DNA from: Ligustrum vulgare
Lineage: Eukaryota; Streptophyta; Magnoliopsida; Lamiales; Oleaceae
Direction of reading: 5' to 3'
NCBI GenBank assembly: GCA_963555705.1
Contig: OY743182.1
Location: 53,076,592 to 53,140,591 of the forward strand
Length of the DNA: 64,000 nt
Part shown: positions 34,342 to 58,693 of the stretch, one piece after another
How positions within the stretch are numbered: position 1 is the first letter of the stretch
Layout: every line of letters begins with the position of its first letter
Notes under the pieces: generated by a model
The model's database searches: none
What the model was told of the DNA's origin: nothing
What the model saw: only the letters and a program-made list of their open reading frames with translations
Program-made: the position numbers and the translations under genes

Positions 34342-34397
34342 GGAATCACTGACACGCGAAGCGCTCCTTTACGCGTTTTAATAATGCATTTAAATAG
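34342..34397 (+). promoter_or_regulatory. Shared upstream block of the cassette, element B copy
   Basis: GGAATCA (34342), CACGCG (34353) and TTTAAATAG (34389-34397), 31 bp before the ATG of the first cassette gene. The same motifs occur in the same order in element D (complement of 58645-58693), although flanking sequence differs. It is a candidate promoter. The TTTAAATAG is TATA-like but very close to the ATG. Confidence 0.45.
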
Positions 34398-34428
34398 ATC
34401 ATTTAGGAAGATATTAGATCCATAAAAA

Positions 34429-34710
34429 ATGGATGTTATATTATCAAATATTCGCAAATATTATTCTAATCTTCCGATAAATGTTTTGAAAAATATTTAC
34501 CAAGTTCGACTTGAAAGATTGAGGCTGCTGATGGATCAAGGCATTCCAAAAGATGTTCGTTGGTTGATCGAAGCAAAAGTTCGTTTAGCTGGTGAATTAC
34601 CAGATTCATTTTCTAAACACATGCCTGGTTTAGGTAAGAGTACTTTTGGCTATTCAGCATTTGTAAAGTGTATTGAAAAATCACCAAAAGGTAAACTTTA
34701 TCAAAAGTAG
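34429..34710 (+). pseudogene. Zinc-finger RNA-binding-like protein, finger lost (element B)
   Basis: A 93-residue frame starting MDVILSNIRKYYSNLPINVL, followed by RLERLRLLMDQGIPKDVRWL and HMPGLGKSTF. It is clearly homologous to the 183-residue protein of element D (58060-58611). After GKSTF the sequence jumps to GYSAF. The basic stretch and all four zinc-ligand cysteines (about 27 residues) are deleted, and the frame then ends early. The remaining N-terminal domain is therefore probably non-functional for nucleic-acid binding. The gene lies antisense to element B and about 150 bp upstream of LOG. Confidence 0.7.
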
Positions 34711-34862
34711 TGTAATTTAGTTAGAAGTAGGTTTTCACTTTTTCAAAAAATGAGCAGTAAATAGTGAAGTTTTTCAAGTTTAAAAAGCCAATGATTTTCA
34801 CAATTTCATGCATCCCAAAATATCATTTTCTCATAAGTTTTTCCTTCCTTATACTCTCAAAG

Positions 34863-35516
34863 ATGGAAGGACCAAAACTTCGACAGATCAAAACTATCTG
34901 TGTATTTTGTGGATCAAATGTAGGGAAAATTTTTGGGTATCTAGAAGCAGCAGTGGATTTAGGAAAGAAGTTGGGAGAGAAAGGTATCAATCTCATATAT
35001 GGAGGTGGTAGCAGTGGTTTGATGGGTTGTGTTTCCCAATCTGCTCTCACAGAGCGTGTAAAAGTGATCGGTGTTATACCTGTTCCTTTAGCTGATATCG
35101 CAGGTAAAACACGAGGGCATGAAGTACAAACCTTATCTATCCACGAACGCATAACTTGCATATTATATGGTTCTGATGCCTTCATTGCCATGCCTGGAGG
35201 TTTTGGTACTTTAGAGGAAATATTCAATATTACCTCATGGGCTCAATTAGATCTCCATACCAAGCCTATTGGGATTTTAAATGTTAACAATTTCTTTGAT
35301 GGTTTGCTAACATTTCTTGATTATGCCGTGGAACAGGGATTCATCTTTCCATTTTCTAGGAGAATCCTTATTTCTGCTCCTACTATCGAGGAATTGCTGG
35401 ATAAGTTGCAATCATATATCCCCATACAAGATCCAACAGGAGTTAAGATAGATTGGTCGCAAGGAAGGGGAATCAAGCGAAACTGGAGTCCGGTTAATGT
35501 AAACTTCACTTTGTGA
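34863..35516 (+). CDS. LOG-family cytokinin riboside 5'-monophosphate phosphoribohydrolase (element B)
   Basis: 217 residues, one exon. LOG enzymes release the ribose 5-phosphate from cytokinin nucleotides to give active free-base cytokinin in the cytosol or nucleus. Seen: a Rossmann start KTICVFCGSNVGK (10-22), IYGGGSSGLMG (45-55), HERI (94-97) and the signature PGGFGTLEE (111-119). In most LOGs the Arg is followed by Lys; here it is Ile. The start at MEGPK is chosen because element D starts at the same place and has the same length. An in-frame Met at 34764 would add 33 unconserved residues. It differs from the D copy at about 20 of 217 positions. Plant LOG genes normally have several introns, so this looks cDNA-derived. 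The ORF is intact. Activity is inferred. Confidence 0.85.
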   Translation: MEGPKLRQIKTICVFCGSNVGKIFGYLEAAVDLGKKLGEKGINLIYGGGSSGLMGCVSQSALTERVKVIGVIPVPLADIAGKTRGHEVQTLSIHERITCILYGSDAFIAMPGGFGTLEEIFNITSWAQLDLHTKPIGILNVNNFFDGLLTFLDYAVEQGFIFPFSRRILISAPTIEELLDKLQSYIPIQDPTGVKIDWSQGRGIKRNWSPVNVNFTL

Positions 35517-35528
35517 ACCCCAGAATAG

Positions 35529-35730
35529 ATGGTGGTAGAGTACGGAGTATTCTTACTCTTGAGACACACCTTAAATTTCTAGGATTTTATCAATGTTTCT
35601 TCTTGTGTACCTTAAAGATAGGTGGTAGAGTACAGAGTATTCTTACTCTTGAAACATACCTCTTTGAGTATTTCTTTATTTCCTCAAAAGATCAGAGGTG
35701 GTAGGATACGGCAACTCCCGAAACACTTCT
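35529..35730 (+). repeat. Three hairpin-like repeats after LOG, element B
   Basis: Units start at about 35531, 35621 and 35696 (GGTGGTAGAGTACGGAGTAT, then TACTCTTGAGACACACC). AGAGTA can pair with TACTCT, and GGTG with CACC. The same three units follow LOG in element D. Possible 3' processing or stability element (inference). Confidence 0.55.
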
Positions 35731-36323
35731 CTTACTTTGAGGATCATAAATGTTTCCCCTTTTTGTATTTTGTATGTATGACTCGTTTATGCTTCTTCAG
35801 GAGCAATAATAATAATATCATTTCAGCATGTTTAGATGATAATTTTTACTTCTTCTGGAGTAAATATGTACTTCTTCTGGAATACATAAGTGCTCGTGTG
35901 CTAGAACTTTTTCAGATACTTATCATCTAATATTCATCTCATAATACTGATGAGATTATTTTCACATTAGCTATGTCTGTGCTATCATGTGATATTATCT
36001 TATCATACATCAACATTCTCTTATTGGATAATCCATTTTTATCTATCTTTTCAATACAGATACAGATAATGGTAACTTCCGGTACCGTTTGATAAAATAT
36101 TTTTTATCAACATTTACCAACTTTTTGATAATGATAACTTCTGGTATCATTTGATAAAATATTATCTAACTTTTAGTATTGATAACTTCTGGTATCCTTT
36201 AATGAAATATGAAATAACAATAATATCAATAATAATACTGGGGTTATACCACCACGTATATATGTTAACAACATCCTCTAGTATGTTAGAATTAACCAAC
36301 AACTGAGGTGTTTCTGAAATAAT
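35731..36323. other. Noncoding interior of element B
   Basis: AT-rich, with several copies of GATAACTTCTGGTATC-like phrases (36060-36200). No gene seen. Confidence 0.4.
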
Positions 36324-36420
36324 CACTAGTACAAAATTACACAAAAAAATAACATATTAGCGTCGTTTTTCTCAAAAAACGACGCCTCAAAAAATGCGGT
36401 GGCAAAATAGTAAATAAAAA

Positions 36421-36600
36421 TTTTAAAAAAGCGTCGGTTCTTTAGTAAGAACCGACGTCAGTATTGCCGTGCAAGTAAGGGCGTCGGTTCTTTAATAAGA
36501 ACCGACGCCTATAATTAAGTAAGGGCGTCGGTTCTTAAAAAAGACCGACGCCTTTTAATTAAAGGCGGCGGTTCTTTAAAGGAACCGCCGCCTTTAAGTT
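36421..36600. repeat. CACTA subterminal repeats, left
   Basis: Four palindromic units of the form GGCGTCGGTTCTTNNNAAGA followed by ACCGACGCC, spaced by 10-20 bp. The last unit is GGCGGCGGTTC...GAACCGCCGCC, with matched changes in both arms. Likely transposase-binding sites. Confidence 0.85.
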
Positions 36601-37050
36601 AACTATTTCTAGGTTTAGTCTTCATCAAACCCGGCACACAGTTCCCCTCAAAGCTCAGCAAATCTGACCTTCTCCCCAAGCCCGTACGTCGTTCATCACA
36701 CCTCTCCCCCGCCGTCGCCACCATCACCACCGTGCCGGCCGTGCAGCTCCGGCGCCATCACAGCTCTCCCCCGTCGCCGGTACCTGCTCTTTCTCTTCCT
36801 CCGCGAGCCTCTTCTCTTCCTCATCGTGAGCCATCTCTTTTCTTCTCCGACGCGCACCACCCCCACCCCCACCCCGCTCCCCTCTCTTTTACCTCCGTGC
36901 GCCACCCCCAGCCCCCACTGTTCATCCGTACCGGCACCTCCACCAACCGCCACCGTCCCTCCCCCAGCCGCGTTCATCCATACCCCAGCCGGCACCTCCG
37001 CCACCGTCCCTCCCCCAGCAGCCACCGTCCCACCCCAGGTCCACCACCAA
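36600..37050. other. GC-rich leader in CACTA element
   Basis: Rich in CCACCGTCC/CCCCCA repeats, open on both strands. The reading frames are low-complexity (Pro/Ser/Thr or Gly/Ala/Val) and not credible proteins. It probably corresponds to a captured 5' UTR or promoter CpG-rich region. Confidence 0.4.
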
Positions 37051-37309
37051 CACGGTAATTTTTCATATTTTAAGTTTGTTCATTTTGTTAGTTTATAATT
37101 TAATCTACCGTCAGGATGCTCTCGAAATTAAGCGTCGTTGCACAATCTGTTTGGTTTGATTTCAAGTTTCCACATTATGTGAAGTTGCTTAGGTATAAAA
37201 ATAGTTAAGTCAATTTAATCACTACATAGAGAACGCGGATTGTCTGATACATTTTATTGCAAGTGATTTTCAACTATTTTTCCACTGAGTCTTAAAATTA
37301 TGGTACTGA

Positions 37310-37531
<222 letters not shown>

Positions 37532-38331
37532 TAAAGTTATTGACTTAAAGATGCTTATTTGGTTTGTTGCACGTTACAAAATCAAAGAATAAAAGTATTT
37601 ATGTCTATTGAGGACCTTATTTCTTTGTCCTGCTTTATTGATTTCCCAAATTCTACATATTATTTGAACTTTGTAACTTTTCCTAGCATGTTTTGACAAT
37701 TAAGAGAGTCCCCAATTTCTACTTTCTATATTATGTTGCTCACACTTTGGGGTTATACTTTTTATTACTAGTGGATTGACAGACTATAGGTAGCACTAAG
37801 CACTTCATCAATTCATTATGGAGTGCTGAAATGAAGAACTTCAACCTTAATGTTAACTGATGTATTTTGATCAACACTTAAAAGTATGACTCATTTTAAT
37901 CTAATTAATAGAATTTAGGAAGCATGGATACAAACACAAGTATAATTTCCCATGGAAACTCAAAAATGAATCTAAGTACTTGAAGTTGGCTCGATGTTGT
38001 TGGTGAAAGTTTATTTGAGATCGGTTAACTTTCGAATTTGAATATACTTTAGAGGCTGTCAACATGTTGGCCTCAGCTCAACTTGAACTCAATTTTAAAG
38101 CCTTTTAAGCAATCAGACATGGCTTGAACTACCTGTTTTTTATCCACATATTTCATAGAACCCAGGGGTGAATCATCAATTTTTATTTTTTTGGTAGGGA
38201 ATCCTTTTTCCCCTGTATATCAGCCCAGTTGAAAAATATTTTTTTGTCCCCCTGGCTCTGCCCCTGATAGAACCGACAAGTACAATCCACCATTCCACCA
38301 CTCATTTCTCTATATTAATCAAACCTTTCAA

Positions 38332-38661
38332 ATGGAGTTGGCAGCCAGTAGGAGCGTTCAAGACAATGAGAGGATCGAGGGGTCATCTGTAACATCTAAA
38401 GAGGGGGCTCCAAGGAAGAATGCATTTATGGTAATAGGAATTAATACAGCTTTCAGTAGTAGGAAGAGAAGGGATTCCGTTAGAGGGACTTGGATGCCTC
38501 AAGGTGATACCATGTTCTTTGTTTGAGTATAGGTCTCCAGTGAAGTAGATACTTCTTATGCATGAAATATAATGATCTATTTGTGTGATTTGATCAGGGG
38601 AACAACTTCTCAGATTAGAGAAGGAGAAGGGGATCATCGTCCGCTTCATGATCAGACATAG
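38332..38661 (+). pseudogene. Captured beta-1,3-galactosyltransferase exons (GT31 family)
   Basis: Exon 38332-38503 reads [12 protein letters not shown], then [20 protein letters not shown] and VRGTWMPQ. Exon 38598-38661 reads GEQLLRLEKEKGIIVRFMIR. Splice sites CAAG|GTGATA, GATCAG|GGGAAC and ATAG|GTAAGC are kept, and the two exons join in frame. This is the start of the catalytic domain of plant beta-1,3-galactosyltransferases, Golgi enzymes that galactosylate glycoproteins such as arabinogalactan proteins. The DxD metal-binding part and the rest are absent, so it is only a fragment. A chimeric transcript with the upstream exon is possible. Confidence 0.85.
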
Positions 38662-39489
38662 GTAAGCTACTTTTTCCTTACATTTTCAGATCGTATTTTG
38701 TTTGACTAGTTTCCTTGTACTTGTATACTTGGTCTACATTTGGTGGTATAGTTTGAGTTATACGGCTTGAATATCCTCAAGTTCTCAAGGAAGTTCAATT
38801 ACATATTTCCTGTTTTGATAAAGTCTATAGATGCAGTGTTAATAAATTTCATATATTTATTGACCAACACTAGTAGTTACCTCCTTCTATCATATTCTAG
38901 TGGGAACTGGGGATGATGAAATGGAATTAGAGTTCCTCTACGAAGTTGTAGATGAAATGCAAATGATTCAAAGATCAACAAAGAATAGGGGGAGATTTGA
39001 TGCATTTTATACATATATAGGATTATGATAATTGTTAGGATAGTTTTCAATAATATATAGGTATTTATACATGTTGGTTAATTTCAATTTATAGGGGAGA
39101 CTCTGGCAAAATTTATGTAAGAATTTTGAGTTTTATTATTATTTTTATAGCTTATTCATATTTATTGAAACTTTAGGGCCTTTCGAGCATTTTGGTCATT
39201 ACGAGGCAAGAGGGCAACATCCAATTTATGGGCCAAATATTTCGTCGAAGAGTGTATGTAAATTTGGCTCATTTTTTGTTAACATGTACAAATTTTTTAA
39301 CAATATTGTGAATACAAAATTAATTATTTCGAAATTCCGTTTATTGAGTTATTAAGTTTTGTTTTGCATTCCTCGATTATTTATTTGTTGAAGATAATTA
39401 GTTGGTGTATGTGATTGTTATATAGTGTATCTATAATGAAAATATAAATAAACGAATAAAATTTTTAAAAAAAAAAAAAATTCTTACTA

Positions 39490-39735
39490 AAAGGCGTCGG
39501 TTGGTTATAACAACCGACGCCTTTTATATGACTAAAGGCGTCGTTTGGTTATAACAACCGACGCCTTTTATTGACTTAAGGCGTCGGTTGTTAATTAACA
39601 ACCGACGCCTTAAATTAATATAAGGCGTCGGTTTACAACCGACGCCTTAAGTATACAGTTTTAGCGTCGCTACTATAGGCGTCTCCTGTACAACCGACGC
39701 CTTTTTCGCTTTACAACCGACGCCTTTGACTCTTA
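39490..39735. repeat. CACTA subterminal repeats, right
   Basis: Five or more units GGCGTCGGTTGTTNNNNAAC / AACCGACGCC, including palindromes at 39493-39525, 39535-39569 and 39579-39611. They match the left array motif. Confidence 0.85.
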
Positions 39736-39749
39736 TTGTACTAGTGAAT

Positions 39750-40729
39750 ATAAAATATGAATATATGTAAAGTATTTCGTAAACCGACCATATAGGCGGT
39801 GTCAACATAATGAAATAATTACCTTTCATGAGTGAGCGAGTCATATCTCCCAGTCAAGGTATTCATAATAGTGATCAAGTCATATCGTCAAATCCAGTCA
39901 AGGTATTCATAATAGTCCAATCTGTTGCAATGATGAGTCATATCCAGTTAAGGTATAAATCCAGTCCATAATAACTCAATCCATCACGGTATGACAATGA
40001 TTATTTTACTTATACCTTGTTTAAAAACCTTTAATTTATCTTGTTGATCACATATTAATCGTTAATTTTCGATTAATATACTTTTATGTATTACCAAGGG
40101 TAAAATTGTCCATATTTTAATATGTTGCTCATATGGATAAATCGAAACCGTCAATAGGATTGAAATTTAATTTAGAACAAACTTACTTTTGGTCCGAAGT
40201 TCAAAATCCCGTCGGAAGTGCTTCAAAAACGGTTTTTAAGAAAACTGCCACGTTCCACCGCCGGAAAATCTCAAAACTGTACAAAACAGAAAAGTAAGAT
40301 CATAGAAAAATTAAGATCGTCGATATGAATAAACTGCCTGTTGAAGTAGTCACGAAATCGTCTCCACGCGCCGCCTCGACGTCTGCGCGTGGGCCTCACG
40401 CGCCGCCGCGCCGGTGCCGGAGCCGTCGACACGTGCCGGTTCGGCAGAATTGTCCGGTCGCCGTGGTCATGGATCCGGTCTCCGATCATCATTTGGATAT
40501 ACGGTTTGGTGTGAATTTGGTTTGGGAGTTTCGGATTACACAATTTCTTCAATTTTTCTATGGACTTGAAATTGATCTTCTAATCTATGATGTATAAATG
40601 ATTTTCTAACAACAAAAACACTAGATTTGGAATATGAAATATTGATTAGTAATAATCTGATTTCTGATACAGAGGTTCATCATTTAGATGCAACTGTAGA
40701 CCATACTCCCGTCATATTACTCAATAGGC
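39750..40729. other. 5' internal region of element B
   Basis: No supportable gene. CCAGTCAAGGTATTCATAAT is repeated around 39850-39960. A GC-rich patch at 40330-40500 is open on both strands but looks low-complexity. It may be UTR or leader sequence of element B. Confidence 0.4.
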
Positions 40730-40750
40730 CAGAGGCTCGTGCTGATAACG
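40730..40750 (-). other. Presumed primer-binding region of element B
   Basis: The minus strand reads CGTTATCAGCACGAGCCTCT next to the 5' LTR. It does not start with TGG, so it is not a standard 3'-end tRNA primer site. The phrase is nevertheless recurrent next to short LTRs in plant copia elements. Primer unknown. Confidence 0.45.
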
Positions 40751-40987
40751 TGTTGTGAAACTATCAAAATTCTAAACAAAAATTAAGAGAGAAAATGGAG
40801 AGAGCTAGAGAGAATTCTCTCATTCTTAAGAAATTGGCAAGTTTACAAATGAAATATAGGCCCTTATTTATAGGGGCGGATAATGGCATAATCGTAATAT
40901 GTAAATTTTACAGGGGCATAAGAGTAATTTTCATTCACACCTAACATTTACCTAATTTCATTACATCATACCCAATATTTCATAACA
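40751..40987 (-). repeat. 5' LTR of element B
   Basis: TGTTGTGAAACTATC...TTTCATAACA, 237 bp. TATA-like CCTATAAATAAGGGCC on the minus strand near 40857-40884. Confidence 0.88.
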
Positions 40988-40992
40988 GTTGG

Positions 40993-41255
40993 CTAGTTTT
41001 TCAACTTTATTCATTGTAGTAATAAAGTGTATTCAAAGCCCGAATGAAGCAGCTAAATACATAATTTATGTTGCCAAACGAAATTTGGAAGCCTAGACGG
41101 GGTTTGCTGGAGAAGGAAGAAAGAAGAAACCGCTGGAAATAAGCTGGTGGACAGATTATTACAAGAGGCAAACATAATCACAAGAAGCTGTCGAAAGTGA
41201 ATTGTCTTGGAATTTTGCAATCTATGAGAAAAAAATTATGTTGTAAATCTCTATA
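40993..41255 (+). repeat. Left LTR of decayed copia, segment 2
   Basis: Continues the LTR interrupted by element B (CTAGTTTTTCAACTTTATTC onward) and matches about 49858-50275. It ends CTCTATA beside the younger copia insertion. Confidence 0.7.
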
Positions 41256-41261
41256 AAAATG

Positions 41262-41473
41262 TATAGGGAATTAAAATAAAATCATTTCTTCATGTATTGT
41301 TGTAACTTATTGTTTCATTATTATCTCTTTAGCTCTTCCGTAGTTATCTTCAGTTAGTTTTACCAATAGTTATCTTTAATTAGTTTTACCATATTCATTT
41401 TTGTATATATATACATTTACAGCATCAATGAGAATTAAGTTTTAACACTTCAAATATATTTTCTTTTCTTTTA
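41262..41473 (+). repeat. 5' LTR of younger copia
   Basis: TATAGGGAATTAAAATAAAA...TTTTCTTTTA. TATA-like TTTTTGTATATATATACA near 41400. Compared with the 3' LTR it shows about five substitutions and a TA-repeat length change. Confidence 0.88.
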
Positions 41474-41484
41474 TGGTATCAGAG
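41474..41484 (+). other. Primer-binding site of younger copia
   Basis: TGGTATCAGAG, tRNA-iMet type, directly after the LTR. Confidence 0.85.
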
Positions 41485-41515
41485 TTTCTCCACTGTCAAG
41501 CTTTCTTTTGATCCT

Positions 41516-42540
41516 ATGGCCTCAACTATCAACTCTTCTAACTCATCCGATAGCACAACTCCATCCACTGTCTCGGATCCTCCTCTTCTTCTTACTACCA
41601 CCACCATACCTTCACCACCAATTGTCATCAATGGCCAATCTCAACTCCCCATCAAACTCACCACTACAAACTTTCCCGCTTAGCACATACAATTTCATAG
41701 CCTCTCAATAGGTTATGATCTAATTGGTTTCATTGATGGTACCTTACCATGTCCATCTCCTATGATGTCAGATTCGGCTACACCTAAAACTTCAATTCCA
41801 AACCTCGAATTTGTCAAATGGATCCGGCAAGACAAACTTTTACTAAACGCAATTGTTTGCTCCTTATCTCCAAATCTTGTCTCTTTCATTGCTGCTGCAA
41901 AAAACTCTAGGGACGCCTGGATTACCATAACAAACACATATGCGAAATCATCTAGGGGACGCATCATGAACCTCAAAAGCAGTCTTGGCCAGCTACAAAA
42001 AGGAGACTCCACAATTATGGAGTATATGCACAAAGTCAAAAGTATCGTGGATAGTCTGACATTAATGAATTCTGCACCTGATAATGATGAACTCGTTCTT
42101 CACATTCTACGTGGACTCGGTCCTGAGTACAATGGATTATGTGAAGCTGTTCGCGCTCATGAATCATCCATCTCTTTTGATGAACTTCATGAAAAACTAG
42201 TCACATGGGAATCCTAGTTGCAACCCGTGAGTACTCCCACCTCTTTCAACCCCGTCACAGCCAATTACACCTCAAAATCCAACACCCGCCATCCAACCTC
42301 ATCTCCCACACAATATTCAAATTCCAAGAACAACAATAATCAGAATAACAACCAATCTCGTGGTCCTTCCAACTCTCAAAACAACAACAATCCCCGGCCT
42401 TACAAAGGCTTCTGTCAGCTATGTGGCCAACAAGATTATTCCTCTAAACGATGTCTCACCTATCGTTTTTCTCCTTGGCAAAACTCGTCCTCTTCTCCTA
42501 ACTATACACCTCGGTCATCCATACCACTCCCACAGCTAAT
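41516..42540 (+). pseudogene. Copia gag, two or three nonsense changes
   Basis: Starts MASTINSSNSSDSTTPSTVS. The UBN2-type gag body includes LEFVKWIRQDKLLLNAIVCS, LSPNLVSFIAAAKNSRDAWI and LHILRGLGPEYNGLCEAVRA. A zinc knuckle relic is GFCQLCGQQDYSSKRC (C-x2-C-x4-x-x4-C with the His position changed to Tyr). TAG stops interrupt at about 41681 (where a Trp is expected) and 42215, and a +1 shift occurs shortly before 42530, leading into the protease frame. Confidence 0.85.
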
Positions 42541-42552
42541 GTAGCCCATCCT

Positions 42553-49400: not shown

Positions 49401-49639
49401 TTATTGAGTGTACTATGTTTAATAAGAGGCTTCAATCCATGTAAGAGGATTTGAGGACTAAGGTTCTTAGAGCTAGTAAATTTAGTACATATTTAGATTT
49501 ACTTCATTTTGAGTTTGTTTAATTTTGATTATTTCTTTTGCGGGTGGGGGTGATGAGAACATATAAATGTCAATTAAATGTAGGATAAGCACTAGCTATT
49601 TGAAATCTCGAAGAAGGGTTTTATTATCTAAGGTGGATG
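46404..49639 (+). pseudogene. Gag-pol relic of the older copia element
   Basis: Leader, then gag with SVYLPKFN.KDYAI and KMRAILINKGSR (about 47020-47130). Next SFKMYTSKDLETHLNIFSII and LNYLPKSYRELKNAINYSRD (47260-47553). The zinc knuckle LHCGKIRHFKKDC (47700-47770) has lost its first Cys. The protease active site reads ETGATFHMCP for D-S/T-G (about 47895). The integrase is heavily shifted: KDRQWP / NRPPSSAI-type pieces near 48590-48900. The linker DRVRREMRHNPRYTNINLAE and YREFIECTMFNKRLQSM (49280-49440) marks the point just before RT. RT and RNase H are deleted and the 3' end follows directly. Confidence 0.75.
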
Positions 49640-50275
49640 CTATAAAATTTAATGTCTCTTAAAACCCAATTTTATGGTTTGATTAAGTGGTTTGTGCATT
49701 TCAAGTTTTGATTTGCTTAAAAACCTTCACGTAGATTATGTGTTTGTTTGAAAGAGAATCTAAGCTATTGGTATAAAAATGACTAAGACCAAAACTTAAG
49801 TAAAAGATGTTTATTTGGGTTTTTAAAGAAAGTATATACCGGTTTTTGATGTTGGCTAGTTATTCAACTTTATTCATTATTCTTTAAAAAAGTTTTAGAA
49901 AATCTTTCTCTAGAAAAATAAGCACAAATTGAGGTTACAAGTGACAAGTGAGAAATCTTGTCTAAGAATCAAAGGGGATCATCAACTGCTTGAGTGTATT
50001 GGTAGTTAGTGCAACGTTCCAAGTCATAAAGTATATCAGAGCCCAAAGGAAGCAGCGAAGGACATAATTTGTGTTGTTGAACGAAATTTAGAAGCCTGGA
50101 TGGGATCTGCTGGAGAAGCAAGAAAGAAGAAACCATTGGAAATAAGCTGCATGACATATTGTTTCAAGAGGCAGACAGAATTACAAGAAGCCACAGGAGA
50201 AGAAATCTGTCAGAAGTGAGTTGTCTTGGAATGTTGCAATTTATGAGAAAAAAACTTCTGCTGTAAATCACTACA
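49640..50275 (+). repeat. Right LTR of decayed copia
   Basis: TGCTATAAAATTTAATGTCTC...AATCACTACA, 636 bp, preceded by a purine-rich AAGGTGGA. The left copy is about 200 bp shorter because of deletions. No TSD found. Confidence 0.65.
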
Positions 50276-51307
50276 CGTTGTTTGAATCCATAAATTATAA
50301 AATTAACTTGTAAAAAATTATAAAAGAATCAATACAATAAACTTTAAAACGGGTCCTCCTGTTATTTCTTCAATCTCTTTCACCTAGTCAAAATCTACAC
50401 AAAAATGTTCACCAAGGTAAACATAATACCCTCTCATTTTCTAAACTAAGTACAAGTCAAAACCCCATTCAAGATTTTATAGAGAATAACCAAGAAGTTT
50501 TCAAAGAAAAAAATGAGAGAAATTATCAAAGTTACACATATAGGATTAATCCTTTTATAAGAGACAACAAAAAACCCTATAGCCAAAACCTACAACTTAG
50601 CTACGTCTAAGAGTCAACCTGCTTAACGAACCAAACATGTCATTTGATAAAATACTTGCCAAGTCAAGCAAGAGGTTAATAGTGAACATATAACAACATA
50701 TCGATTATTTATACAACAATACTAGCTTGTGTTTGAGATCCATTTTTTGACTAGTCACTATCAAAGTTGATTTTGTAGGGACCCACTCCTTGACTTCAAA
50801 CAAAATAGGAGACAATGTGTCAACAATGTCCCACGTCACTGATTTTCCTTTAGCTTATAATCCAATTACACTCTTATTTCAATTACACTCTTCTCATTTT
50901 AATATAAAAAAGGGGTTGATTTGAAAAAGGAGGTTATTCCAGTAATTTTACACTCTAACGACTCCAAGACTATATTACAGTCTGACAAGATACACACATA
51001 ATAGACTCTGCACCGGACCGATATTTGCATTGTGTGTCCACTTTTAGAGAAAGAGAAATTAATGGGAATTAGATTGCAGATGGTGAGACGAATGTTGTGT
51101 AGTTTTGATCGTACATTTGAAATCTTTCCCAAGCAACATGGAAGGTATGGACTCGGACTAAGAGATCTATACGTCTTTTCTTTAATTATATTTCTTTCTT
51201 ATATTGTTATTATTATCAAATCTGACTAATTACTAATCAACCTAGTGATTTTCAGAAGTGTTTGGACTTAAAAAGTCATGTCAAACGGTCAATTCTGTTG
51301 GTAATGT

Positions 51308-51351
<44 letters not shown>

Positions 51352-52059
51352 TATGTAATTTGATTCTTAAGAATCAAATTAAATAATTTACTCAAGCTTG
51401 AGGGTTTTATTTCAACTGTGGTCATTGTACTTCCACCCCAAGATTGAATTAGGTTACTACACTTTTACTTGTATCAATTTAGTCATTATAACTTTAAGTT
51501 TGTTGGATCACTATAGTCCAATCTGTCAATTGAGTTTTACATCTCAATCAAAAATCTTTCTTTATCTGTGTATAAACGACAGTGGTGGTATTGATAAATA
51601 CCTTTCTCATTCAAGGCCTTATAAAAAATTCTTAATTATGCATATATTTTATTATATCGCAAAATGGTCAACACATTCACCGCAAGAATTCAAACTGCAT
51701 CAGATTAACACTCACTAGTAAATGATTGCCACATCAGGATTCGACATTACTCAAAGTGATGAATTTCAAAGTAGTAATATAATTTGAGACAAAGTTAAAA
51801 TATATTCAGTTGAAAAAAATTGAGTTAAAATAATTTAATTGAGACTCGGTGAAAGTATAGGGGAAAAGTCTAAATGTACAGAAAAAGCCATACAGATTGG
51901 CATACATACTATAAAAAATTACCAAAATATCACTTTTATAAATTCTAACATACAAAGTCCTCAAGTTTACACATTTCAAATCATTAAGTATACAAAATTC
52001 CAAAACAACTTTAATATAATTTTACAATTTTTGTTTACTCATAGTAGCACCCCCTAAAT
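50276..52059. other. Stretch without recognisable gene
   Basis: AT-rich. 50350-50700 has noncoding LTR-like style. 51370-51730 resembles noncoding plant repeats (TTCAACTGTGGTCATTGTAC). 51800-52059 is A-rich and ends at a tRNA-Met-type primer sequence, so it may be the intergenic region of the pararetrovirus fragment that follows. Confidence 0.4.
51310..51347. repeat. (TA)n microsatellite
   Basis: About 19 TA units. Confidence 0.95.
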
Positions 52060-52233
52060 TGGTATCAGGGCCATATGATAGATCTAAAAGATAAATATTG
52101 CATAACAAAATACAAAAAATGAATATAGAATACACACGTCTAGACTAATAATTATACATAAATTAATACTACCTGATAATTATAAAATAAAAATTTTAAG
52201 AACCTTAAAAAATTTAGATAAAGACTTAAAAAG

Positions 52234-52234
<1 letters not shown>

Positions 52235-52270
<36 letters not shown>
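52235..52270. repeat. (TA)n microsatellite in pararetrovirus fragment
   Basis: About 18 TA units, interrupting the viral reading frame. Confidence 0.95.
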
Positions 52271-52273
<3 letters not shown>

Positions 52274-52888
52274 CTAATAAACTTCAATATAATAAAGAAA
52301 AATTTTATCATAAACGAAATATTAGATTTAATCCATAACGATATATTAGAAGAACTGTACAAAGACTATAGAAATTGACTATCATAGAGCAAACCATTTA
52401 CTAGAAAAATATTTAGATATAGAAAAAAATGAAAAATTAGATTTAATAGCTAAACAAAGAAGGAATTTAAGTAATATGATTAGAGATGAAAGAATTATAA
52501 AAAGAGAAGAAGTATTAAGATTAAAATCATTAGAAAAAGGAGAGAATATTATGAAATTATCATTAAACAATTTCCTAAAATACAAATAATCCAAGAAAAC
52601 AAAGAAAAATTAATAAAGAAATATATGAAAAAACTGGAGAAATAGAAAGATTGAGAAAATATTTTAGAATACAAGGAAGAAAAGAAATGACAAGATCAAT
52701 AGAAAAATTTAGTGAATATATGATAATAAAATATAAAGAAGCAAAATACCAGTCAGAACTTATACTAGAAATAGAACATATTAAAGGAAGGTTCTAATCA
52801 CAGAATTCTCAGAAATAAAATTTGAAAAACAAATAATAGAAAATATTAAACTACCAGTTGAATCTTATCAAATAAAACGAGCTAATAC
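52271..52888 (+). pseudogene. Pararetroviral ORF relic, function unclear
   Basis: Pieces include YHRANHLLEKYLDIEKNEKL and LDLIAKQRRNLSNMIRDERI. After shifts come RLRKYFRIQGRKEMTRSIEK and MIIKYKEAKYQSELILEIEH. It is rich in Lys, Glu and Ile with helix/coiled-coil character. It lies between the primer site and the virion-associated-like ORF, where caulimovirids have their first ORF(s). It continues past the insertion at 61826. I do not recognise a movement-protein motif. Confidence 0.45.
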
Positions 52889-53189
52889 TGTAGCGACCAA
52901 GAAATTTTACGCGATTAATAATTATTTTAATAGAAAATCGTGTCGCTACTATTTCACCCATTTTTATTAAGTTAACGCCACGACGTATTCGTATAGCCAA
53001 GTCAAGAAATAATCGAGATCGTTCGATTTTAAATTAAATTCCGAATTTCTAAAAATATCTCCATTCTCTTGATTTAAAGTATATTAAGTCCAAGTACTTA
53101 ATTCAATGTTATCCCAATATTTATTTATACAAAAATTACTTTTATTATTGAAATTAAGAAAATATATGCAATCATGGGAGGTTCCATTA

Positions 53190-53610
53190 TATGTAATCAT
53201 GAAGAGCATAATATTTGTATAAATATGGAAAAGTATATGAATGATTTATATACTCCATTATATATAATCATGAAGAGCATAATATTTATATAAATATGGA
53301 AAAGTATATGAATGATTGATAAGACTCCATTATATGTAATCATGAAGAGCATAATATTTGTATAAATATGGAAAAGTATATAAATGATTTATATACTCCA
53401 TTATATATAATCATGAAGAGCATAATATTTGTATAAATATGGAAAAGTATATGAATGATTGATAAGACTCCATTATATGTAATCATGAAGAGCATAATAT
53501 TTGTATAAATATGGAAAAGTATATGAATGATTTATATACTCCATTATATATAATCATGAAGAGCATATTATTTGTATAAATATGGAAAAGTATATGAATG
53601 GTGCTTTACT
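53190..53610 (+). repeat. 71/72-bp minisatellite in 5' LTR of D
   Basis: Units containing AATCATGAAGAGCATAATAT start at about 53196, 53267, 53339, 53410, 53482 and 53553 (six copies). Two variants (TGATTTATATACTCC and TGATTGATAAGACTCC) alternate, giving a 143-bp higher-order period. Confidence 0.92.
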
Positions 53611-53825
53611 TTAAGAAAATGATGTGTTAAAATTAATAGAATTGAATGATTATGTTTACAATATGCCAACTTTATACATCTATTTAATCCCATCTCTTTT
53701 ACACACAACTCTACACATATACACTTATTTTCAATCTCTTGACAAAATCCACAAGTAAGAGAAATTCAAGGTGGTCAAGAAAGTTTTGGTCCATTTACTA
53801 CTACACTTCATTTTAATCTTTTAAA

Positions 53826-54345
53826 AGGTAAGTATATCTTATGTTTTTATGAAAAGTAAGTATGTTTTTATGAAAGGTAAATACACCTTATGTTTTTATG
53901 AAAAGTAAGTATGTTTTTATGACAAGTAAGTATATCTTATGTTTTTATGAAAAGTAAGTATGTTTTTATGAAAGGTAAATACACCTTATGTTTTTATGAA
54001 AAGTAAGTATGTTTTTATGACAAGTAAGTATATCTTATGTTTTTATGAAAAGTAAGTATGTTTTTATGAAAGGTAAATACACCTTATGTTTTTATGAAAA
54101 GTAAGTATGTTTTTATGACAAGTAAGTATATCTTATGTTTTTATGAAAAGTAAGTATGTTTTTATGAAAGGTAAATACACCTTATGTTTTTATGAAAAGT
54201 AAGTATGTTTTTATGACAAGTAAGTATATCTTATGTTTTTATGAAAAGTAAGTATGTTTTTATGAAAGGTAAATATACCTTATGTTTTTATGAAAAGTAA
54301 GTATGTTTTTATGACAAGTAAGTATATCTTATGTTTTTATGAAAA
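53826..54345 (+). repeat. 98-bp minisatellite in 5' LTR of D
   Basis: Units starting GTAAGTATATCTTATG at 53828, 53926, 54024, 54122, 54220 and 54318. Each unit is built of shorter TTTTTATGAAAAGTAAGTAT-like subrepeats. Confidence 0.92.
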
Positions 54346-54859
54346 TGTTTGGATCATTGCTATGAAATCAATCTCACAAGATTGTTATGGGTTCCATATG
54401 ATATGTTTATGATTATGTTAAGGGGACCGGAGTTTAGTAGCGCTACACATAAGAATTCTTGCCATTTAAGTTCGGTAAAATTCTTGTGTCTCCCTATGTT
54501 TATGAGTATTTCGATCCTATCCTATGTTATGATGAAAATGATCCATATGCTTTCAAAAGAAAATTTATGCTTGGTATACTTACTGGGATTTTATAAATCT
54601 CACTCCACGATATTTACCATTTTCAGATAATTGAAGGTTCGAGGCGGTCAACATGGAAGTGGCAAAAGTGGTTAAGATTGATGAGATAATTACGTTGAAC
54701 TTTATGTAAGAAAATTATGTTCTATTTTTATTCACAAATAAAATTATGGGATTCTAATTATTCTTTTGAATAATTTTACATTACTATTTAAGTCTCGATA
54801 ATATGATATGAGTCACTTTTAGTGGCACTCGAATGGTCGAGAATTCGGGTCGTCGCAGT

Positions 54860-54871
54860 TGGTATCAGAGC
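54860..54871 (+). other. Primer-binding site of element D
   Basis: TGGTATCAGAGC, an exact match to the tRNA-iMet type, two bases after the LTR. Confidence 0.9.
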
Positions 54872-56817
54872 AAAGAGTTTTAAAAACGATTCTGTAGATT
54901 TTTGAAATTTTATTTCTTTAAAAAAAAAAAAAAAATCACTATTCACGTGAACAGTAAAACGACGTGCTATTCATGATGAACAGTGAACGAAATCACTATT
55001 CATTATAAAAAAAAAAAGTTGAATTTTCACATGTCAAGTATGGTTATGATTTTGAAAAGCATGATGAAATTTGATGAGCGAATTTCAAGGACAAAATTCA
55101 TTTTAAGCAAGGGAGTTTGTAATGTCCTGAAAATTTTATGGAATATAATTAGTTAGTGATATGATGTTTATATTGATGTCTTTGATAAATTTCTAGAAGT
55201 TCGGGGACTAAAGGAAAAATAAGATTTGACGATAAATTTTATTTGGGTTAAGTTATTAATTATTGATGGGGAGATAATTACTATATCGATATTGGATTTG
55301 TTTTGAAGACTGTGATTAATTAGGAATTATGATTCAAGAAAATGTTGATTTGGATACAACCACATTAAATTATTGTTGATTAAAGGAAAATAAGATTATA
55401 TGAAATATTTTAACTCATCACTCTACTATGTCACTCTCCACGTATTGACTCCTCGAACCAGGTATGTTATATGCTTTGCAAGTCATTTACGATTTTATTA
55501 AGACATGTTAAGTATGAAATCTTCATATGTTATGAATCTTTAAGTGAAATATACATGTTGAGTATGATATGAATTGATAGAAGCCTGAATTTTAATTTAT
55601 TCCTTTTTATGTAGAATCATGAGACATAGAGGATATTGATATGAATTTTGGTTCATATTAAGCTTAGTAAGACTGACTAAATTAGAAAAATAAGTTGGTT
55701 CGTAACTTTTGCCAAAAAAATATATGGAATAATATATTAAACAAACAAAATTAATAATGAATTTGTACAATAATTTATCCCTTTATCACTACCTTTGTGT
55801 AAAAACAAGGGAAAAACTGTGGATGGTTATTAGTACTTCCTCTTCAAGTTTCAATTTTCGGTTCAATAATTTATCCCTTTATCACTACCTTTGCTTAAAA
55901 GCAAGGAAAAACTGTGGATGATTATTGGTACCACTCTTCAAGTTTCAATTCTGAAAAAAATTCGGAAAGAAAGAAAGAGAACGGGTGTTGAGCATAATGG
56001 GAATAATATGACTTAAGAATGATTTTCAAAATCATTGTTGTCCTCGAGTTTAGAAATGATGAACCTTAAATGGACTTTGCATAATTGATTTTAGACATGG
56101 CACTAAGTATAAGAAGTCAACAGAAATGATTAGAAATATGTTCAGATTATCTATCATTTAGATTTAATGAGAAATAGCGAGCCAATTTTATGAAGTTTTA
56201 TGAGATGTTAAGATTATAAGTGATATGATTTTAATGAGACTTTTATGAGAAGCATTATGAAGTTAGAGATTTAAAGATTTGGTTATTGGGAATTAAGTAA
56301 TGGCTATTATGTTGAGTAAGTGAATTATGCCTCTATATTGAAGAGAAATTTATTATGAACTTTGGCCTTGTGATTAAATTTTGGGAATATGATTTATGAC
56401 TTATAAATATAAGTATGAGTAATCTTTTGAACCAATTAAGGTATTGAAGGAAGTGATATTGTGATATTGACGACTATGATTTGAAATTTCTATGTTGAGG
56501 AATTATGAATTGATTTTCTGGAATATTTTTTTATAATATTGAAGTTTGATGAAATTGTGGTCAATTTTTAGATCGTTGTGATCAAATGTGGAATTATTTA
56601 TTATTGTGAGTTATGAAGTATGCTTACGGTTTGAATAAGTCCAAATTTCAAAGGAAACTCTGCCTAGAATTTTATCGTTTGGAATTAAGAGCATAGTATG
56701 GTATGCAATCACTAAGAGAATTGAGGTTAGACATGCAAATTCATTTACATCACAAACGAGATTTAGTAGATGATAACAGAGATATTATTATTTTCTCGTA
56801 AGGAGAACACACAAGAG
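54872..56817. other. Noncoding interior of element D, with a relic LTR start
   Basis: Contains CACGTGAACAGTAAAACGAC-type motifs near 54945. At 55080-55135 a second polypurine-like run (TTTTAAGCAAGGGAG) precedes TGTAATGTCCTGAAAATTTT. That looks like the PPT/LTR start of another Ty3 element fused into D. A roughly 90-bp segment repeats at 55780-55850 and 55865-55945 (TTTATCCCTTTATCACTACC). No ORF with recognisable domains. Confidence 0.5.
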
Positions 56818-56888
56818 TCACACTGGAAAGAAATACATGAAACACGCAAAAGCAAAAGAAAGCAACATGGGAAATTCCTCAAATTGAG

Positions 56889-57100
56889 AGATGTGTTTCC
56901 GGAGTAGCCGTATCCTACCACCTCTGACCTTTTGAGGAAATAAAGAAACCTTCAAAGAGGTGTGTTTCGAGAGTAAGAATACTCCGTAATCTACCACCTG
57001 GAACCTTTGAGGTACACACAAGATTTAAACATTAAGGAAATCCTAGGAAATTAGAGGGGTGTCTCGAGAGTAAGAATACTCCGTACTCTACCCCCACCTA
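56889..57100 (-). repeat. Three hairpin-like repeats after LOG, element D
   Basis: On the minus strand, units at about 57100-57055, 57000-56957 and 56930-56889 (GTAGAGTACGGAGTATTCTT, then ACTCTCGAGACACC). They are the homologues of 35529-35730. In the first unit the outer arms read GGGG/CCCC, where element B has GGTG/CACC. Confidence 0.55.
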
Positions 57101-57109
57101 TTCTAAGAT

Positions 57110-57763
57110 TCATAAAGTTAAGTTTACATTAACCGGACTCCATTTTCGCTTGATTCCCCTTCCTTGCGACCAATCTATCTTAACCCCTGCTGGATCTTGT
57201 ATTGAGATATATGACTGCAGCTTATCCAGTAGTTCATCAATAGTAGGAGCAGAAATAAGGAGCCTTCTGGAAAATGGAGAGATGAATCCCTGTTCCACAG
57301 CATAATCAAGAAAGGTTAACAAGCCATCAAAGAAATTGTTAACATTCAGAAGCCCAATAGGCTTAGTATGGAGATCTAGTTGAGCCCACGAGGTAATGTT
57401 AAAGATTTCTTCTAAGGTACCAAAACCTCCGGGCAGGGCTATAAAGGCATCAGAACCATATAGCATACAAGTTATGCGTTCATGGATGGATAAGGTTTGA
57501 ACTTCATGCCCTCGTGTTTTGCCTGCAACATCTACCAAAGGGACAGGTATGACACCGATTACTTTTGATTTCTCTGCAAGAGCAGATTGGGAAACACAAC
57601 CCATTAGACCACTGCTACCACCCCCATATACAAGAGTGATACCTTTTTCCCCCAGTTTCTTTCCAAGATCTACGGCCGCTTCTAGATAACCGAAGCCTTT
57701 CCCCACTTTTGATCCACAAAATACACAAATAGTTTTGATCTGTCGAAGTTTTGGTGCTTCCAT
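57110..57763 (-). CDS. LOG-family cytokinin riboside 5'-monophosphate phosphoribohydrolase (element D)
   Basis: 217 residues, intronless. The predicted reaction is hydrolysis of cytokinin riboside 5'-monophosphate to active cytokinin base plus ribose 5-phosphate. Motifs: KTICVFCGSKVGKGFGYLEA (10-29), LVYGGGSSGLMG (44-55), HERI with Arg96, and PGGFGTLEE (111-119), the nucleotide/catalytic signature with Glu. Ile replaces the Lys that usually follows the Arg. The ORF starts MEAPKLRQ and ends VNVNLTL like the B copy, with about 20 differences in 217. Upstream on the minus strand is TTTAAATAGCC (complement of 57838-57846), about 75 bp before the ATG. The gene is antisense to element D. It is full-length and open in a young element, so it may well be expressed. 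Low introns and capture suggest a cDNA origin. Confidence 0.88.
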   Translation of the reverse strand: MEAPKLRQIKTICVFCGSKVGKGFGYLEAAVDLGKKLGEKGITLVYGGGSSGLMGCVSQSALAEKSKVIGVIPVPLVDVAGKTRGHEVQTLSIHERITCMLYGSDAFIALPGGFGTLEEIFNITSWAQLDLHTKPIGLLNVNNFFDGLLTFLDYAVEQGFISPFSRRLLISAPTIDELLDKLQSYISIQDPAGVKIDWSQGRGIKRKWSPVNVNLTL

Positions 57764-57837
57764 CTTTGATAGTATAGAAGAGAAAACTTACGAAGAAGAT
57801 GTGATTTTGGGATGCCTGAACTATGAAATATGTTTGG

Positions 57838-57846
57838 CTATTTAAA
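57838..57846 (-). promoter_or_regulatory. TATA-like motif upstream of LOG, element D
   Basis: The minus strand reads TTTAAATAG within GGCTTTAAATAGCC, 75 bp before the LOG ATG. The same TTTAAATAG precedes the zinc-finger gene. Element B has TTTAAAAAG at the corresponding place. Confidence 0.4.
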
Positions 57847-58059
57847 GCCGAAAAAATTTACTGTTTTTGATTGATTATGAAAAAGTAAAGATTTACTTTT
57901 GACAAAATCGGCCAACTTTTGACTGTTTTACCAAAGATATCACCTTTCGGTGATTTATTTCCAGCTTTATCAAAACTCGAGAAAGGAAAATATATTTTAT
58001 TTCCAAAACGCGTGAAAGAAAACAGCAAAATATTTTAAATGTGTATCAAGAGATTTACC

Positions 58060-58611
58060 TTATATCATTGTTGAACTGCCAGAAGCCTCATTTTGTAAAA
58101 CAGACTGGCAAACAGGATCTTTTGCTATTATATTTTGGAGACTATAACGATTTTTGTCCTCGTTAAACTGAGCGTATAAGGAGAGAAGTTCACGTTGCAC
58201 ATAACCACTTGGGTGCGTCTCAAGAGTCAGTCGAATATCATCCAAAGACTCCTTACTCAGTCCACCCTTTATGAATTTGATTTTATCATCCCGATTAGTA
58301 GAAGAATATCCTACTGTTTTGCAACGAGTATCACAGTTCCAACGAGCACATTTGTAGCAACCATTCAGCCTTTTTGCTCTTCGTTTCTTTGCGAAGGTGC
58401 TTTTGCCTAAACCAGGCATGTGCTTTGGAAAGGTCATAGGTAATTCACCAGATAGTCGAACTTTTGCTTCGATCAACCAGCGAACATCTTCTGGAATATC
58501 ATGAGCCATCAGCAACCTCAATCTTTCGAGCCTTATTCTATAGATCTTTCTCAGATCATTCATAGGAAGATTGGAATAATACTTGCGAATGTTAGAAAGG
58601 ATGATATCCAT
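58060..58611 (-). CDS. Small zinc-finger protein resembling Betaflexiviridae nucleic-acid-binding proteins
   Basis: 183 residues, one exon, starting MDIILSNIRKYYSNLP. The N-terminal part is helical and Arg/Leu-rich (RLERLRLLM, 28-36). The core at 68-97 is GLGKSTFAKKRRAKRLNGCY followed by KCARWNCDTRC, a basic patch and a C-x2-C-x4-C-x3-C finger (C85, C88, C93, C97). Then comes DDKIKFIKGGLSKESL. Order and spacing (G-x-S/T-x-F/Y, A-K-x-R-R-A, Cys cluster, then K-x-K/R-F) resemble the 3'-proximal RNA-binding/silencing-suppressor proteins of vitiviruses and carlaviruses. That resemblance is by pattern only, and a plant protein with a convergent finger is possible. It lies 297 bp upstream of LOG in the same orientation. 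Confidence 0.6.
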   Translation of the reverse strand: MDIILSNIRKYYSNLPMNDLRKIYRIRLERLRLLMAHDIPEDVRWLIEAKVRLSGELPMTFPKHMPGLGKSTFAKKRRAKRLNGCYKCARWNCDTRCKTVGYSSTNRDDKIKFIKGGLSKESLDDIRLTLETHPSGYVQRELLSLYAQFNEDKNRYSLQNIIAKDPVCQSVLQNEASGSSTMI

Positions 58612-58644
58612 TGTTTGATGATTCTAACCTCTTCCCAGCATGAA

Positions 58645-58693
58645 CTATTTAAAAGCATTAAGGATCGGAGGGAATCCGCGTGATATTGATTCC
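58645..58693 (-). promoter_or_regulatory. Shared upstream block of the cassette, element D copy
   Basis: The minus strand has GGAATCAATATCACGCG, then TTTAAATAG (complement of 58645-58653) 33 bp before the ATG. Matches 34342-34397 of element B in motif order and spacing. Confidence 0.45.

Follow-up and report, generated by a model that had tools for sequence, protein, structure and literature searches.

Two LTR elements with a common antisense cassette

How LTR elements that resemble each other in neither LTR, PBS nor PPT come to carry the same pair of genes is the question raised by a 64,000-nucleotide stretch of the Ligustrum vulgare genome (contig OY743182.1), referred to here as the window. 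Its two elements of interest, B and D, both display paired LTRs, a 5-bp target site duplication (TSD), a PBS and a PPT, and their TSDs and LTR pairs agree with a preliminary description of the window as containing LTR elements that differ in LTR, PBS and PPT. Element D lies on the forward strand (52889–61820, +), between copies of the TSD AATAC at 52884–52888 and 61821–61825. Its 5' LTR (52889–54857, +), which begins TGTAGCGACC and ends GTCGTCGCA, is followed by the PBS region GTTGGTATCAGAGC (54858–54871, +), which we take to be of the initiator-tRNA-Met type, and the PPT region TTTTAAGGGGGTAAATT (59523–59539, +) precedes the 3' LTR (59540–61820, +). The LTRs measure 1969 and 2281 bp, with nine mismatches across 1969 aligned positions. 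The exact LTR/PBS junction of window D occurs five times in the genome, a figure that is no measure of copy number because the junction is CpG-rich and LTRs of the D family are variable; the LTR subfamily of window D may be rare.

Element B is on the reverse strand (31160–40987, −; TSD GTTGG at 31155–31159 and 40988–40992), with LTRs of 269 and 237 bp (five mismatches across 237) and a PPT that is the reverse complement of CTCCCCCTTAAATG (31429–31442, −). Its PBS, CGTTATCAGCACGAGCC (40734–40750, −), is presumably of the half-tRNA-Ile type, fitting plant tRNA-Ile. This PBS type is tied to the Bianca-type Ty1/copia lineage in PMC6317226; B itself contains no RT by which its lineage could be placed. 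A CACTA-type transposon (36324–39746; TSD AAT) is nested within B, outside the cassette, and is missing in all four B-family members compared, so that the B unit minus this insert is about 6.4 kb. Both elements are regarded as non-autonomous: no gag/pol-like frame was seen in B or D when the frames were judged by eye, and tblastn with one Gypsy integrase as query gave no significant match within either.

All that B and D have in common is a cassette of about 2 kb, made up of a NABP-type zinc-finger gene and then an intronless LOG gene. It spans 56782–58929 (−) in D, the stretch conserved with the B family and/or a third family, E, beyond which the flanks are unalignable, and 34094–35743 (+) in B, as given by B–D homology. 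B 34701–35743 aligns with D 57922–56876 at 84% and B 34094–34646 with D 58929–58394 at 72%, and from these two blocks it follows that both genes and both flanks are homologous, as had been proposed for the upstream and 3' sequence. The PBS and PPT place D on the forward and B on the reverse strand, hence the cassette is antisense in both, again in line with the preliminary description, and among Pfam families its ORFs match NABP and LOG only. A TATA-like TTTAAATA occurs in D both 42 nt upstream of the NABP start (58646–58653, −) and 83 nt upstream of the LOG start (57839–57846, −). Between families the intergenic DNA of the cassette aligns at about 0.5–0.8 in most alignment windows and at 0.2–0.5 in one. 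The 3' flank of LOG in D (56876–57100, −) contains three similar hairpin-like repeats of about 40 nt, conserved between families; individually these hairpins are weak (z −1.5 to 0.06) and they are not claimed as RNA elements.

The LOG and NABP proteins

The LOG genes of D (57110–57763, −) and B (34863–35516, +; first in-frame ATG upstream at 34791) are each one uninterrupted frame of 217 aa with an intact PGGFGTLEE motif, ending in VNVNLTL and VNVNFTL, respectively. The protein matches Pfam Lysine_decarbox (1.3e-33) and PDB 2a33 (1.6e-57), the PGGxGTxxE motif of the family is present in both copies, and on this domain and motif element LOG is a member of the cytokinin riboside monophosphate phosphoribohydrolase family. 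The structure model is confident (pLDDT 82.6), with a disordered tail. Canonical plant LOG (Arabidopsis LOG3, PDB 2a33) has the same fold family, PGGxGTxxE motif and length, whereas the element LOGs stand phylogenetically apart, with one continuous frame in the window copies and a tail that is basic and mostly of the LxLxL type. In a tree of 104 rows, made up of the 65 element-type and 35 canonical sequences that passed length filters (from 120 each), the two window LOGs, and partial sequences of an Orobanche minor LOG and AtLOG8, one 100/100 branch splits the element LOGs from the 35 LOG3-like rows and AtLOG8. An EAR-type LxLxL end is found in 92 of 120 LOG relatives (best 120 of 6,948) and in 0 of 120 LOG3-like enzymes, a control that represents the LOG3 subgroup, being the best 120 of 7,863 matches to Arabidopsis LOG3. 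The strict LxLxL is absent from the window LOGs and from the other full-length copies sampled here; the tail of the Ligustrum vulgare copies is degenerate (VNVNL[TS]L or VNVNFTL), fitting neither LxLxL nor DLNxxP.

The NABP gene of D (58060–58611, −) encodes a 183-aa protein of the viral nucleic-acid-binding zinc-finger family, matching Viral_NABP (PF05515; 9.9e-9, 35.9 bits against a cut-off of 23) and, also above cut-off, Carla_C4 (2.2e-5). In B about the first 73 codons are left (34429–34647, +), so the claim that both elements carry a zinc-finger gene followed by LOG holds for D and has to be amended to a broken zinc-finger gene for B; the gene is unbroken in several other B-family copies. 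For NABP the predicted fold is of low confidence (pLDDT 61), too weak for a structure search. A zinc motif CX2CX4CX3C is present in 105 of 120 NABP relatives (best 120 of 343 matches), which do not show the CX2CX12CX4C reported for a carlavirus CRP in PMC10141686. Carlavirus CRP/NABP and the plant proteins are alike in Viral_NABP and Carla_C4 homology and in a basic patch adjoining the cysteine motif, but differ in the spacing of that motif and in that the plant NABP is carried by a retroelement; given the different spacing, viral function is not simply transferable to NABP. Among viral contigs no NABP was found and LOG gave one distant match (29%), and the NABP relative P0027 had no match among plasmids and phages.

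Copy number and carrier families

Across the 1.385-Gb genome there are 4,459 exact occurrences of a 20-mer from the 5' part of LOG (reversed-pattern control, 0), and first-look candidates number 7,995 for LOG and 7,081 for NABP, of which the best 150 of each were scored, 150/150 matching. NABP adjoins LOG on the same strand in all 20 fetched 10-kb LOG loci and in 7/7 systematic pattern loci, two of the seven systematic copies having a frameshifted LOG. In the B family, matching 5-mers flank the LTRs in 7 of 11 fetched 10-kb loci, all seven different, although two of these are weak since they sit in AT repeats; the other four loci have no credible flanking 5-mer. The possibility that the cassette is an ordinary host locus is rejected, given 4,459 exact LOG copies and dispersed insertions with different target duplications.

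Three carrier families are separated by their sequences, B, D and E (the last outside the window), with at least two unrelated backbones between them, and each of the 37 distinct loci fetched besides the window is assignable to one of the three. Cross-family scores across these 37 loci are 0, or small and confined to the cassette edge, except in a neighbouring element at locus L029. Among 20 loci compared for orientation, 16 have the cassette antisense and four, lacking a PBS motif, are uninformative; it is likewise antisense in 16/16 B-type PBS–LOG pairs. Orientation in the D family is taken from window D and loci L028 and L043, and in the E family from six loci. A pair that had been described from B and D alone is therefore carried by both and by thousands of copies elsewhere, in three families and antisense wherever this could be tested.

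Selection, age and source

Between families, dN/dS is 0.080 (B–D), 0.101 (B–E) and 0.115 (D–E) for LOG and 0.159, 0.178 and 0.133, respectively, for NABP, in a set of 24 LOG and 18 NABP sequences from which short or broken frames were dropped and in which most copies were chosen by best score, biasing it towards conserved copies. The B–D LOG pair of the window alone gives 0.095 (bootstrap 0.049–0.164). Purifying selection on both proteins between families is evident at the sequence level, and for LOG, at 0.08–0.12, this answers the question of constraint that the preliminary description had posed. Inter-family dS is 0.37–0.77 over both genes (LOG, 0.37–0.50), set against LTR pairs that are 95.3–99.5% identical in 13 elements and 84.6% in one (L014), which indicates that the conservation is mostly older than the insertions. 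The selection could also have acted in an unseen source gene.

Relatives of both cassette proteins occur in several eudicot orders, and on another contig (L002) a NABP copy (PF05515, 34.1 bits) follows a Gypsy pol in sense orientation. The LOG-bearing elements of Steinbauerova et al. (2011) are reportedly Athila-like, with similarity to LOGL4. As to the Athila-like elements of this genome, the 3' 4 kb beside 4 of 95 scored integrase matches contained no NABP or LOG (best E 0.68), so that a source was not found in these four flanks, nor was an autonomous partner identified for the cassette-bearing elements.

One cassette on different backbones

The preliminary description held that the cassette has been moved or captured as a unit at least twice; that it is common to LTR elements with different LTR, PBS and PPT stands, while the transfer itself we infer. 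Its rival is a common origin of B, D and E in a single cassette-bearing element, the LTRs, leader and ends having been exchanged over time in modular fashion, which we think rather unlikely for the set as a whole. All tested copies are antisense, as descent predicts, but B seems unrelated to the other two families: its backbone has no homology to D or E in the loci fetched, though the intergenic cassette DNA still aligns, and both its PBS type and the size of its LTRs are different. For D and E, LTR exchange is a possible link. Next to the B element at L029 a D-type LTR (97–99%) is joined to an E-type leader (72.5% over 790 columns), from which it is clear that D-type ends and E-type internal DNA do co-occur, and window D has LTRs and a leader very unlike those of the D-family loci L028 and L043; together these make D–E exchange a live option. 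A cassette that is itself mobile, inserting independently into LTR elements, would account for edges that are sharp and common to the three families, but is very improbable, since the surrounding backbone is of B, D or E type at 37/37 fetched loci besides the window, the cassette edges show by eye neither terminal repeats nor a target duplication, and the reversed orientation was never seen.

Comparison with described elements

A LOG (YgdH) domain has been described in Gypsy-type elements of Citrus and Populus trichocarpa (PMC9289625, citing Steinbauerova et al. 2011), and the supposition that no such system had been described is to that extent mistaken; our literature search found no report of a NABP partner, of a NABP–LOG pair or of its sharing by unrelated elements, and this part of the claim stands as far as these sources go. 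The Citrus and Populus elements likewise have a LOG-family gene in plant LTR retrotransposons, but theirs was found in RT-bearing Gypsy consensus sequences, whereas the carriers here are without gag/pol, with LOG antisense and paired with NABP, and carrier B is, by its PBS, not Gypsy-like. Retand elements (PMC11963269) resemble the present ones in antisense accessory genes within an LTR element and in common tandem repeats, and differ in that their antisense ORFs are mostly TRP28 (PF04195) and pol domains are kept; B and D, which have no pol, lack the TRP28 gene that Retand carries in antisense between pol and its 3' LTR, and the main text and domain table of PMC11963269 make no mention of LOG, cytokinin, NABP or zinc. 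The Phalaenopsis Gypsy elements with an AlkB RNA demethylase (PMC9289625) also have a host-type enzyme fixed and proposed to counter host control, but there it is a single extra gene of other activity in a 25-kb Gypsy element with pol.

What the cassette may do for its carriers

B and D are best explained as members of high-copy non-autonomous LTR families whose only recognised coding content is an antisense NABP–LOG module, probably, in our view, an accessory one kept by selection, with both proteins presumably working for the element. Such elements would be copied by gag/pol supplied in trans, and the module would have been put together from a LOG of plant lineage and a NABP of RNA-virus type and have moved from one LTR backbone to another via recombination or capture. 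Inside the host cell both proteins would serve the element. NABP has a basic patch and a motif of four cysteines; it may bind nucleic acid and, by analogy with carlavirus CRP, for which functions in silencing and on proliferation genes are reported in PMC9650830 and PMC10141686, might damp silencing and/or drive proliferation genes. LOG would release active cytokinin and so favour cells that are dividing or meristematic, through which new insertions could enter the germ line; the basic, LxLxL-type tail found in other species might additionally link LOG with corepressors in the nucleus. Lying antisense, the genes could be transcribed from promoters of their own, with the genomic RNA left uninterrupted. 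More tentatively, the pair might be a selfish toolkit of a viral NABP regulator and a hormone-activating enzyme, traded among unrelated LTR elements and reprogramming host silencing and cytokinin for the spread of elements without gag/pol. It would then parallel, in plants, the accessory genes of retroviruses, and its carrier would be a transposon that manipulates a hormone.

Plant LTR elements commonly capture genes, and a working pair of host genes, or an old insertion of viral origin, might have been captured and amplified as cargo without benefit. The decay of copies (the broken NABP of B, the frameshifted systematic LOGs) and the higher within-family B–B dN/dS of 0.25–0.26 are in keeping with such a passenger, which we nonetheless judge unlikely, because between-family dN/dS is 0.08–0.18 in both genes over the dS given above, both genes, their order and orientation are kept in three carrier families, and relatives of both proteins persist across several eudicot orders. 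That the genes are kept for the benefit of the plant, the elements being incidental, would suit LOG as a normal plant growth enzyme family, but is highly doubtful: copies are dispersed in their thousands, those that can be dated are mostly young, and constraint is seen between element lineages. Most cargo of plant transposons is regarded as debris. The two proteins described here are conserved by selection, their host targets are plausible, and the genome has thousands of copies on different elements. If active, they would help to explain the abundance of elements without gag/pol and bring hormone control into the transposon–host conflict. Gene catalogues are affected as well: in Diospyros and Populus, LOGs with the element-type LxLxL tail have been given names of the host type, LOGL10 for example.

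Carrier elements and the NABP–LOG cassette

Elements D (52889-61820, + strand, 5-bp TSD AATAC) and B (31160-40987, - strand, 5-bp TSD GTTGG) are non-autonomous LTR elements in which the PBS adjoins the 5' LTR and the PPT adjoins the 3' LTR. The PBS of D (GTTGGTATCAGAGC) is presumably of the initiator-tRNA-Met type, and that of B (CGTTATCAGCACGAGCC) we take to fit a half tRNA-Ile primer. Half tRNA-Ile primers are tied to Bianca elements in one study (PMC6317226). In both elements an antisense NABP gene (viral nucleic-acid-binding zinc-finger family) is followed by a LOG gene (cytokinin-activating enzyme family), the order and orientation given in the preliminary description, and by eye no other frame in B or D resembles a known element gene. 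The NABP of D exceeds the Pfam cut-offs for Viral_NABP and Carla_C4, and that of B is cut down to about 73 codons; LOG is an uninterrupted frame in each, matches Lysine_decarbox and keeps PGGFGTLEE. That the two elements differ outside the cassette was borne out, homology being limited to 34094-35743 in B and 56876-58929 in D, with nothing substantial in common beyond.

When a third carrier family from elsewhere in the genome, E, was included, 60-nt windows were conserved across a span that opens just upstream of the NABP start and closes about 300 nt beyond the LOG stop, and flank identity outside the cassette dropped to 0.2-0.6. The box TTTAAATA lies in D both 42 nt upstream of NABP and 83 nt upstream of LOG; the copy before NABP is also present in 4/4 B copies compared, locus L028 and 2/4 E copies, and that before LOG in 4/4 E copies, L028 and 1/4 B copies. 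Three similar hairpin-like repeats 3' of LOG (56876-57100, -, in D; 35530-35743, +, in B) rank with the best-conserved non-coding stretches of the cassette; their single folds were not significant.

Some further features of this region were recorded. A CACTA-type transposon (36324-39746, TSD AAT) is nested in B and absent from all four B-family members compared; a frame within it (38233-38523) is galactosyltransferase-exon-like by eye, without a Pfam match. The LTRs of D contain 49-bp tandem arrays (53672-54461 and 60537-61424) as well as arrays of about 71/143 bp; for both kinds of array the copy number differs from one LTR to the other. Directly outside B is a WRC domain (30332-30694, +, 1.8e-17), which is typical of growth-regulating factors, and an ORF at 62953-63474 (+) matches the Caulimovirus coat-protein domain below cut-off (25.0 bits vs 27), possibly an endogenous pararetrovirus remnant.

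Copies, carriers and orientation in the genome

In the 1.385-Gb genome we counted 2,138 forward and 2,321 reverse occurrences of an exact LOG 20-mer, and none of its reversed-pattern control. Pfam searches gave 7,995 LOG and 7,081 NABP first-look candidates; scoring covered the top 150 of each, and every one of these matched. NABP sequence lay upstream of LOG on the same strand in 20/20 10-kb LOG loci, drawn from the best-scoring list to span different frame lengths; their backbones were 11 B, 8 E and 1 D. Loci picked by NABP score were all B (8/8), and seven sampled systematically from the first 100 places of the 20-mer were 6 D and 1 B, with NABP free of stops in 7/7 and LOG unbroken in five and frameshifted in two. 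The loci cut numbered 43, of which 37 were distinct, and every one could be assigned to a single family. The listing of copies and carriers proposed earlier comprises thousands of LOG 20-mer copies and three families. Some copies stand in head-to-tail arrays. One stretch (G000 C2:24821734-24846566) has five LOG copies spaced about 6.1 kb, with a repeat of 3.9 kb that is 100% identical in L018, and is read as a head-to-tail LTR-element array.

The preliminary claim that B and D are unrelated appears to hold, and B looks unrelated to E as well; matters are less simple for D against E. The E family has LTRs of about 1.8 kb (TGTTGACC...GGTCAACA) and a PBS of the initiator-Met type. Cross-family scores beyond the cassette were zero or small cassette-edge matches, with the sole exception of a neighbour element outside the B element of L029 (L029:7931-10000), where a D-type LTR is followed by an E-type leader (72.5% over 790 columns). 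On these comparisons B therefore appears to stand apart, and D and E may have a common history of exchange.

The antisense position of the cassette extends beyond the window. With loci turned to put LOG on the - strand and a PBS of B or initiator-Met type sought, a PBS was present on + in 16/20 loci and absent from the other four; the single - strand motif, at L026, lies outside the element and beyond its PBS. A second sample, which covers the B family, joined the first 100 LOG places with 53 B-type PBS junctions from the same stretch of contig C1 and gave 16 pairs less than 4 kb apart, antisense in 16/16 at a spacing of 1.8-2.6 kb. In seven B-family loci the ends carry 5-bp matches that all differ from locus to locus; two of the seven fall within AT repeats.

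Selection and age

The dN/dS comparison suggested in the preliminary description gave low values for LOG between families (0.080 B-D, 0.101 B-E, 0.115 D-E; mean dS 0.37-0.50), as for NABP (0.159, 0.178 and 0.133, respectively); score-picked loci skew these values toward conserved copies, and the window B-D pair, which was not score-picked, gave 0.095 for LOG (bootstrap 0.049-0.164). LTR pairs were 95.3-99.5% identical in 13 elements, B and D among them, and 84.6% identical in L014. Since nearly all pairs are so similar, the protein constraint long predates most of these insertions. In our view the cassette is genuine, occurs in great abundance and has been conserved by selection; its anatomy is nearly certain, and we have moderate confidence that it has a role for the element.

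Possible role and known precedents

LOG enzymes carry out the activation step of cytokinin. Cytokinin activity is described as regulated by LOG proteins (PMC9289625), and a carlavirus CRP as a nucleic-acid-binding suppressor of RNA silencing that can act on cell size and proliferation as a transcription factor (PMC9650830), with a basic NLS adjoining its zinc motif (PMC10141686). By analogy, NABP and LOG could jointly favour expression in dividing cells and reduce silencing; the cysteine spacing of NABP relatives, however, differs from that reported for a carlavirus CRP.

Accessory genes in LTR elements are already known as a kind. Additional ORFs are reviewed in PMC7264820, from whose main text the words LOG, cytokinin and zinc are absent. 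Antisense ORFs are a standard Retand feature, but with other domains than NABP and LOG (PMC11963269). A LOG-type YgdH domain has been reported from consensus sequences of Citrus (two species) and, when no filter was applied, of Populus trichocarpa (PMC9289625, citing Steinbauerova et al. 2011). The earlier statement that no described system of this kind was known does not hold for LOG; a literature search, thin for subscription papers, returned no report of the NABP–LOG pair or of NABP in LTR elements. What is new is an antisense NABP–LOG module common to backbones that lack gag/pol, of which at least two are unrelated.

Relatives in other plants

The NABP search gave 343 matches, the best 120 including Orobanche (three species), Striga, Populus (two), Acer and Xanthoceras as named hosts; in the Orobanche gene models P0014 and P0018 NABP runs into LOG. 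Among the best 120 of 6,948 LOG matches at 1e-20 were many from Reevesia and several from Xanthoceras, Populus and Diplodiscus. Four NABP/LOG match pairs (>1.5 kb) had equal contig size and source, against a jitter mean of 0.18, which points indirectly to linkage in other plants. A LOG tree of 104 rows has a 100/100 branch with the 35 canonical LOGs and AtLOG8 all on the same side of it. The two LOGs of the window belong to a 100/99 group of eight with two named members, Diospyros and Orobanche; the Orobanche branch is long and uncertain.

Among the same 120 LOG relatives, 92 had LxLxL within the last 12 residues and 103 a basic cluster within the last 18, compared with 0 and 1 of 120 LOG3-like host enzymes; 5% of shuffled tails had LxLxL, which is one EAR consensus (PMC6283911). 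Full-length copies sampled from this genome lack the strict LxLxL, their tails being VNVNL[TS]L or, in B, VNVNFTL.

A sense NABP, 65% identical to that of D, occurs on a 3,330-bp contig (L002, DAIEQH010000041.1) filed in a bacterial MAG (Candidatus Nomurabacteria) and read as plant contamination. An integrase frame of Gypsy type (rve 2.1e-16) precedes this NABP by 192 nt, and by eye the gene sits between pol and a GAGGACAATG...TTGGGGGG motif, in what is presumably an Athila-like element. Four integrase relatives in the window's genome (73% identical) have the same motif and no NABP at that place. A pyrimidine tract ending GCAG follows directly after pol in L002 (about 1640-1740) and in L039-L042 (first 200 nt), possibly a splice acceptor for a downstream gene.
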